From Geobacteraceae bacterium (lineage in GTDB: Bacteria; Desulfobacterota; Desulfuromonadia; Geobacterales; Geobacteraceae), in assembly GCA_024281055.1 (NCBI GenBank), contig JAMXLF010000033.1, positions 62,001 to 126,000 of the forward strand: a stretch of DNA of 64,000 bases. The letters run 5' to 3'. The position numbers and the translations under genes are program-made. This document shows positions 29,990-43,858 of this stretch, piece after piece. Positions within the stretch are counted from its first letter, which is position 1. Every line of letters starts with the position of its first letter. The notes below the pieces were generated by a model that worked only from the letters and a program-made list of their open reading frames with translations, did no database searches and had not been told where the DNA came from.

Positions 29990-30295
29990 ATGCTGACAGG
30001 AAAACAGAAGAGATATCTCAGGGGGCTCGGACACGCTCTCCGGCCGGTGATTACCGTTGGGAAGGGCGAGATGAGTGAATCCCTGGTGGCGGAAACGTGC
30101 GAAGCCCTGAAATCCCATGAACTGATCAAGGTAAAAATTCTTGAAAGCTGCCTAACGGATCGCAACGAGGTGGCGGCCGAACTTGCCGCAGCCAGTGAGG
30201 CCGAGGTTGCCCAGGTCCTCGGCAGGACCTTCCTCCTCTACAAACGGGGTGAAACTCCGCGACTTGAATTACCGATTGATACCGGGAAGAAATAG
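29990..30295 (+). CDS. yhbY: YhbY-family CRM-domain RNA-binding protein
   Basis: A 101-residue protein of one CRM domain that associates with pre-50S ribosomes. The sequence LTGKQKRYLRGLGHALRPV, the GxxG-type loop VGKGEMSES, and the closing RTFLLYKR motif are diagnostic. AAGGA precedes the ATG. A GC hairpin (30295-30313) overlaps its stop. Confidence 0.93.
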   Translation: MLTGKQKRYLRGLGHALRPVITVGKGEMSESLVAETCEALKSHELIKVKILESCLTDRNEVAAELAAASEAEVAQVLGRTFLLYKRGETPRLELPIDTGKK

Positions 30296-30343
30296 GCGGG
30301 GACGCCCCCCGCCCAATTTCCGTTTTGAGAACGCACCCGGCGC

Positions 30344-30898
30344 TTAGTCTTCACCGTGCCTGCCGTGCCTCCCTTCGTCGTGTCTGTGCTCCTCTCGATC
30401 CCACTTCCTCTCGTCCTTTGCCAATCTCTTGTCCTCTCTCCCCTCCCTGCCCGGTCGGAAGTGTCTCCCACGATAATGGTCGGCGTCACCACGGTACATA
30501 CGGTATTCCTCGTCTCGCAGATGACGGATATTTTCGAGCCGGTGCTTGCGCAGGCCGGGCGGCAGGGCTTTGTATCGCACAACATCCCACGGCCCGTTGT
30601 AGCGCGGAGAGCGGTACCAGACGTTTCCCTTGCAGACATAGTAGTTGTTTCCCGTGAAATAAAGATCGTAAGGTACCCCGACTGCCACATAGAAACCGAG
30701 AGCAGGGGGGGCGACGAACTCGGGTGGCTCTTCGATGACGACCGGCGGGGTAGCCGGAGCGACCGGGACCGGCACGGGAACAACCTCTCTGGGCTGGTTA
30801 CCGATGTTGATATTGAGGTCGACGCCGACATTGCCGGCCCGCGCCAGCGGAGCCGCGCTGACAAGTAACACGGCCGTCAACAGAATCTGCTTTTTCAT
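30344..30898 (-). CDS. exported Tyr/Trp-motif protein under a cGAMP riboswitch
   Basis: A 184-residue exported protein with a signal peptide (1-21, ending ARAG). A Pro/Val-rich linker (about 35-65) is followed by a core with VWYRSPRYNGPWDVV (about residues 97-111), a pattern seen in small exported proteins of Desulfuromonadota, and a long His/Arg/Asp/Glu-rich charged tail from about 125. The biochemical role is unknown; envelope or surface attachment is possible. AAAGGAG precedes the ATG by 7 bases. A GEMM-Ib riboswitch with its own promoter lies about 110 bases upstream. Confidence 0.75.
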   Translation of the reverse strand: MKKQILLTAVLLVSAAPLARAGNVGVDLNINIGNQPREVVPVPVPVAPATPPVVIEEPPEFVAPPALGFYVAVGVPYDLYFTGNNYYVCKGNVWYRSPRYNGPWDVVRYKALPPGLRKHRLENIRHLRDEEYRMYRGDADHYRGRHFRPGREGREDKRLAKDERKWDREEHRHDEGRHGRHGED

Positions 30899-31009: not shown

Positions 31010-31055
31010 AAAAAAGCCGGGGCTGAATATCGTATGATATTTCGGCAACCCGGCT
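31010..31055 (-). terminator. riboswitch expression-platform terminator
   Basis: On the minus strand AGCCGGG (31055-31049) pairs with CCCGGCT (31021-31015), with an inner GATATT-rich hairpin, and six Ts follow to 31010. The left arm is also the 3' part of the riboswitch aptamer, so aptamer and terminator cannot form together. Ligand binding should therefore allow read-through. Confidence 0.8.
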
Positions 31056-31113
31056 GTCTCGATGAGACCCTGTAGGCTTTCCGCCCCACCTTCGCAGGTG
31101 GTTTAGTATTATC
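31036..31113 (-). promoter_or_regulatory. GEMM-Ib riboswitch (3',3'-cGAMP class)
   Basis: Minus-strand sequence follows the known Geobacter cGAMP aptamer closely: AATACTAAACC (31111-31100), P2 CCACCT-GCGA-AGGTGG with a GNRA tetraloop (31101-31086), the conserved GGGGCGGAAAGCC (31087-31075), P3 with GTCTC-ATC-GAGAC, and the closing AGCCGGGTTGCCGAAATATC (31055-31036). P1 is GATA with TATC. The type is set by established GEMM-Ib knowledge; ligand choice (cGAMP over c-di-GMP) is inferred from overall similarity, not from one residue. Confidence 0.9.
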
Positions 31114-31151
31114 GTCTATCGTGTTACTTGATTCTTCAAGTGTCGGAAAGG

Positions 31152-31181
31152 ATTATCCACCAGAGCAGCACAATGCGTCAA
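31152..31181 (-). promoter_or_regulatory. sigma-70 promoter of the riboswitch transcript
   Basis: On the minus strand TTGACG (31181-31176) and GATAAT (31157-31152) are 18 bases apart. The start near 31145 leaves about 30 bases before the aptamer. Confidence 0.6.
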
Positions 31182-43736: not shown

Positions 43737-43767
43737 CAGAGAAAATTTAACCGTACTGCCTTTTAAT

Positions 43768-43858
43768 TTAACCCCGTGAGGTTAGCAAAGGTGATAAAGC
43801 TTGATACCCTCAGAGTATATAAGAGCCTTTCCGCCTGCCTGCGGGAAGGCTCTTTTTT
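43768..43858 (+). promoter_or_regulatory. PyrR-controlled attenuator leader
   Basis: AACCCCGTGAGGTTAGC (43770-43786) matches the PyrR-binding loop consensus (CC-N-G-N-GAGG). Downstream, AGAGCCTTTCCGC (43822-43834) pairs with GCGGGAAGGCTCT (43841-43853) and a T-run follows, giving a strong terminator. PyrR bound to UMP would stabilise the upstream structure and favour termination. Confidence 0.8.

Follow-up and report, generated by a model that had tools for sequence, protein, structure and literature searches.

The closest described relative of the locus reported here is the pilM riboswitch of Geobacter metallireducens, a transcriptional ON switch with a GEMM-I aptamer, in which the 3' strand of the aptamer is shared with a terminator and the ligand-contacting cytosine is held by a terminator guanine (PMC9262584). 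This cytosine, C75, contacts the ligand by Watson-Crick pairing, and a C75-G102 pair abolishes ligand binding (PMC9262584). The equivalent of position 20 is described as a factor in selectivity and not as a hard filter (PMC9262584), and an A20G change makes the Gmet_0970 aptamer c-di-GMP-selective (PMC6456294). A second point of reference comes from G. sulfurreducens, with the pgcA (GSU1761) switch and the gacA regulon, a system of the GEMM-Ib class whose targets are of an exported or surface type and whose switches at times stand in tandem (PMC6456294, PMC8835794). In cells growing on particles of Fe(III) oxide, cGAMP runs a surface programme (PMC6456294).

We analysed a 64-kb stretch of Geobacteraceae DNA (the window), on the minus strand of which a leader runs from 31181 to about 30911, ahead of an open frame of 184 aa. 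In our assessment it is highly likely that this leader holds a 3',3'-cGAMP-sensing GEMM-Ib riboswitch by which the gene is turned on, and that the gene belongs to the cGAMP regulon as a recurrent member. The locus resembles pilM in architecture, on which, rather than letter by letter, the likeness was judged, and differs in the gene controlled. It shares class and target type with pgcA, although the product of pgcA is a cytochrome whereas the window protein has no heme motif. The features are as follows.

31152..31181, minus strand: sigma-70-like promoter, TTGACG-18-GATAAT, 10 of 12 consensus bases
31036..31120, minus strand: GEMM-Ib aptamer including P1 (RF01051 match 31117-31041, 46.2 bits; P2/P3 covariation)
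31117..31120, minus strand: 5' strand of P1, GATA, pairing with UAUC at 31039-31036
31107, minus strand: specificity base A, position 20 (alignment to Rfam and own-genome aptamers)
31010..31055, minus strand: intrinsic terminator that uses the aptamer's 3' side as its left arm (RNA fold; -19.0 kcal/mol alone; T-run 31015-31010)
31045, minus strand: expected ligand-pairing C, paired with G31023 in the terminator fold; counterpart of pilM C75 (PMC9262584)
30905..30910, minus strand: Shine-Dalgarno AAGGAG (from sequence)
30344..30898, minus strand: gene for a predicted exported protein of 184 aa with a WY-x(n)-GPW core and a charged tail (open frame; family in 35 of 38 genomes)
30293..30315, minus strand: terminator-like hairpin 3' of the gene (consensus scan)

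The aptamer and its probable ligand

The search with RF01051 that the preliminary description had proposed matched the full GEMM-I model at 31117-31041 on the minus strand, with 46.2 bits (E 7.2e-6 in the 64-kb window) against a gathering score of 35, in agreement with the class and strand assigned there; the Rfam scan of the 64 kb gave one match besides this aptamer. Under a model made from 26 aptamers of its own genome (G000) the window aptamer scores 93.6 bits, a value that is partly so by construction, because it is one of the 26 members. Among these aptamers 11 of the 19 pairs of P2 and P3 are changed on both sides, which none of 500 shuffles reached, and this covariation and the Rfam score place the element in GEMM-I. 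A chance match was rejected on the Rfam score and the conserved arrangement. The aptamer bounds first given, 31113-31036, were correct to within a few bases; with P1 the extent is 31120-31036.

In the alignment to Rfam and to the 25 other own-genome aptamers, A31107 (core AAUACUAAACC) directly precedes the lower P2 pairs on their 5' side. We take this base to be position 20 in the Vc2 numbering. An A at this position places the aptamer in GEMM-Ib and is shared with the cGAMP-selective Gmet_0970, consistent with the cGAMP type predicted at the outset; the switch is as such a further GEMM-Ib of an already known class. Because of the A at the Gmet_0970 selectivity position, and because two of the genome's GGDEF domains carry the Hypr serine, the window switch very probably senses cGAMP rather than c-di-GMP. 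The GGDEF signature is readable in 20 of 26 own-genome matches, with the nucleotide-binding Asp in 17, Asn in one (L181) and Ser at that site in two, L171, which has a GAF domain, and L177, which has a response-regulator domain. In G. sulfurreducens two serine-bearing enzymes, GacA and GSU1937, both contribute to cGAMP (PMC8835794). These two serine-bearing domains suggest, from a single residue, that the genome is probably able to make cGAMP.

Terminator and predicted switching

The longer transcript (to 31000) folds into a terminator stem at 31055-31015 with the T-run at 31015-31010, whereas a shorter transcript ending at 31025 forms P2 and P3 in its place, with fold z-scores against shuffles of -3.19 and -2.09, respectively. 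The terminator uses strands of outer P3 and of P1, and its left arm belongs to the 3' side of the aptamer, as the preliminary description had it. In the predicted structure the terminator and the bound aptamer are mutually exclusive and C31045 lies within the stem, paired with G31023, which are the features of a pilM-type ON switch. A simple terminator scan did not list the 31055-31010 terminator, because the bulges in its stem fall outside what the scan allows.

By analogy with pilM, positions 31055-31036 on the aptamer's 3' side would, in the ligand-free state, pair with 31027-31015, and the terminator so formed would disrupt outer P3 and P1, sequester the ligand-contacting C31045 at G31023 and, we propose, stop transcription at 31015-31010. 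Once A31107 and C31045 have bound cGAMP, P1 (GATA/UAUC) and P3 would retain the 3' side, the terminator would not form, and RNA polymerase would read into the gene. We infer both cGAMP binding and this ON logic in the cell: as predicted for this locus, ligand would prevent termination, and the cGAMP ON arrangement put forward originally agrees with the published pilM riboswitch (PMC9262584).

The leader, the gene and its product

The promoter assigned to 31181-31152 is present, with 10 of 12 consensus bases, and three sites of that quality occur in the region, where shuffles give 0.5. No such promoter is common to the homologous leaders as a group, however: a shared sigma-70 promoter was sought in 26 of them and not found (mean best 7.0 of 12, against 6.4 shuffled). 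The gene named as the target, 30898-30344, was recovered as an open frame of 184 aa with AAGGAG at 30910-30905, and the hairpin at 30293-30315 after it suggests a one-gene transcript.

The protein consists of a signal-peptide-like start, a proline-rich linker, the core and a tail with 75% charged or His residues, and fits the exported protein with a charged tail that had been predicted; we infer that its site of action is the envelope or the cell exterior. In the family alignment W94, G102 and W104 of the core are invariant and Y95 is nearly so. The WY-x(n)-GPW pattern is present, but the arginine in the "WYR" motif of the preliminary description is not conserved and that name is loose. Searches of the window protein gave only DUF7896 in Pfam, below threshold (E 0.32), and no match in NCBIfam, and a PDB sequence search with the family profile gave no matches at E up to 1. 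The WXXGXW repeat PF12779 matches 12 of 32 family members weakly (best E 5.4e-5); the window protein itself has no family match at E up to 0.1, and for this reason we do not assign it to PF12779. A structure model from three sequences was poor overall (mean pLDDT 51.7, pTM 0.47), with residues 71-120 at pLDDT 71-78 by blocks of ten and mostly in strands. Foldseek of this model against the PDB gave no match with E up to 0.001, and we therefore draw no conclusion on the fold. A contig search found two homologues in Thiobacillus MAGs, at 29% identity, so the protein has relatives also outside the bacterial order of the window.

Recurrence of the switch with the protein family

The new part of the finding is that this type of switch is met repeatedly ahead of genes for relatives of this protein. 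Family members are present in 35 of the 38 genomes; the window's own genome has seven matches including the window protein, with a GEMM aptamer ahead of three of the seven (contigs C33, C84 and C20). We searched 90 loci around family matches, a few of the weakest matches having been left out, with aptamer model R1, which gave 29 matches, 28 of them strong (82 bits or more); L046 and L104 contain one and the same aptamer of genome G006, and the strong aptamers therefore number 27. The aptamer lies 63-195 nt upstream on the sense strand in 25 of 74 family genes, and these direct links occur in 20 of 38 genomes spanning three families of the order. A 21st genome, G004, has its aptamer 696 nt upstream of the family gene (L061), and at L066 a strong aptamer lies downstream of the family gene. 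Positions 20-22 are A-C-U in every one of the 28 strong matches that lie near family genes. P1 can pair in all 26 upstream switches (G-U allowed), and 23 of the 26 have a strict U-run, with the ligand-contacting C paired in the terminator fold in those 23. Most linked proteins are 41-58% identical to the window protein, and one is 29% identical.

The 38 genomes hold 546 GEMM-I matches in sum; assuming one gene per kb, the expected number of links for 74 genes is about 0.3. The 25 links are not independent, as they share ancestry. On a tree of the 74 proteins the link label requires nine changes, at least five of these forced by well-supported branches, against a shuffled mean of 21.6, so the link is clustered yet has been gained or lost several times; this tree excluded L059, a fragment at a contig edge, and rows under 60 bits, and was scored with both members of the G006 tandem pair (L104a and L046) linked to their one aptamer and with G004 (696 nt) not linked. 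No switch was found at 48 of the 74 family genes, and so the family protein is not used only under cGAMP. A conserved partner gene was sought downstream of the switch-linked family genes and none was found. The statement that the family is a target in ten of ten genomes was discarded as biased, since the nine relatives had been chosen for having a switch-linked family gene; our conclusions draw only on the 38-genome counts and on the comparison with pilM. In G004, L061 771-1468 is a repeat-like sequence that separates the aptamer from the family gene. The window's own genome also carries a family paralogue at contig C92:20316-20804 (minus strand), with one TAA stop within the match and no adjoining aptamer in the R1 locus search.

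As a yardstick, pilM was searched in the same 38 genomes, with 40 matches, 30 of which had loci; a strong upstream aptamer was present in 13 of the 30, and one further match was weak, at 31.6 bits. The link is thus no less widespread for the family (20 or 21 of 38 genomes) than for pilM (13 of 30 loci), in a comparison in which the family has more paralogues per genome. Given this recurrence, the family is a good candidate for a component of the cGAMP surface programme that has gone unstudied, and the useful part of the finding is the target, a little-studied, predicted exported family that would be a common cGAMP-type output in related bacteria. A wider reading, which is possible but which we hold to be rather doubtful, is that in this order the exported WY-x(n)-GPW proteins belong to the ancient core of cGAMP outputs, that their activation by the switch is at least as widespread as that of pilM, and that they function on the cell surface when cells touch solid electron acceptors; if true, following the cGAMP signal could reveal what an un-named protein family does. 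GSU1018 (PMC10599522) and KN400_1038 (PMC13194489) are reported as GEMM-controlled hypothetical genes, and either is a possible lead as the counterpart of the window gene. The family may already figure in published lists of GEMM targets as "hypothetical protein", and we therefore do not claim the switch-family link as unpublished.

Alternative explanations

It is conceivable that the aptamer is selective for c-di-GMP or truly dual, with the gene following c-di-GMP as much as cGAMP. GEMM-I does contain c-di-GMP switches, which RF01051 does not separate, omcST of G. sulfurreducens is reported to respond to both ligands (PMC6456294), and 11 of 41 own-genome aptamers have G at position 20. The A-C-U found at positions 20-22 both here and throughout the strong matches near family genes nevertheless argues for cGAMP, given that A20G is the very change that conferred c-di-GMP selectivity on Gmet_0970 (PMC6456294), and we regard c-di-GMP or dual control as unlikely.

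That the switch is a relic, either non-working or linked to the gene by accident, would be in keeping with the 48 family genes that have no switch and with the long distance in G004. Such a relic is very improbable in view of the 25 direct links in 20 genomes and three families, where 0.3 would be expected, and of an aptamer, P1 and terminator that have stayed intact while the proteins have mostly diverged to 41-58% identity. GEMM-I switches can also act in the opposite direction, as does the OFF switch Cd1 of C. difficile (PMC9262584). At the window locus, however, the terminator, like that of pilM, includes the 3' side of the aptamer itself and is incompatible with the bound form, and no separate anti-terminator strand was seen in the folds, so that an OFF switch is the least probable of these alternatives, with hardly any weight. 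The reading that we prefer remains a cGAMP-sensing ON switch.

Other regulatory elements in the genome and the window

The genome has 41 RF01051 matches, 40 of them above the cut-off. Read by model alignment, positions 20-22 of the 41 are A-C-U in 24, A-G-C in five, G-G-U in five and G-C-C in four, with one each of G-C-U, C-C-U and G-G-C. Sampled GEMM-Ib targets include CXXCH, PilM-like and LysM-like proteins (labels from sequence), which fits the published regulon of surface and electron-transfer functions; no role for the window protein follows from this. At L026 1501-1580 (minus strand, contig C24) an otherwise GEMM-Ib-like aptamer has G at position 20 (core AAUGCUAAACC), and may be a natural A20G variant with its ligand swapped to c-di-GMP. 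Five aptamers (L004, L006, L008, L009 and L017) combine A20 with G21-C22 rather than C21-U22. On contigs C8, C26, C29 and C35 GEMM aptamers occur as tandem pairs or a triple before one gene; on C26 an A-C-U pair is followed by a G-G-U aptamer, a possible two-ligand arrangement. Elsewhere in the window, 43755-43858 (plus strand) matches the PyrR binding site RF00515 with 54.5 bits against 54 and is followed by a terminator; it lies directly upstream of pyrR-, pyrB- and pyrC-like frames (named from sequence) and is a predicted PyrR attenuator.
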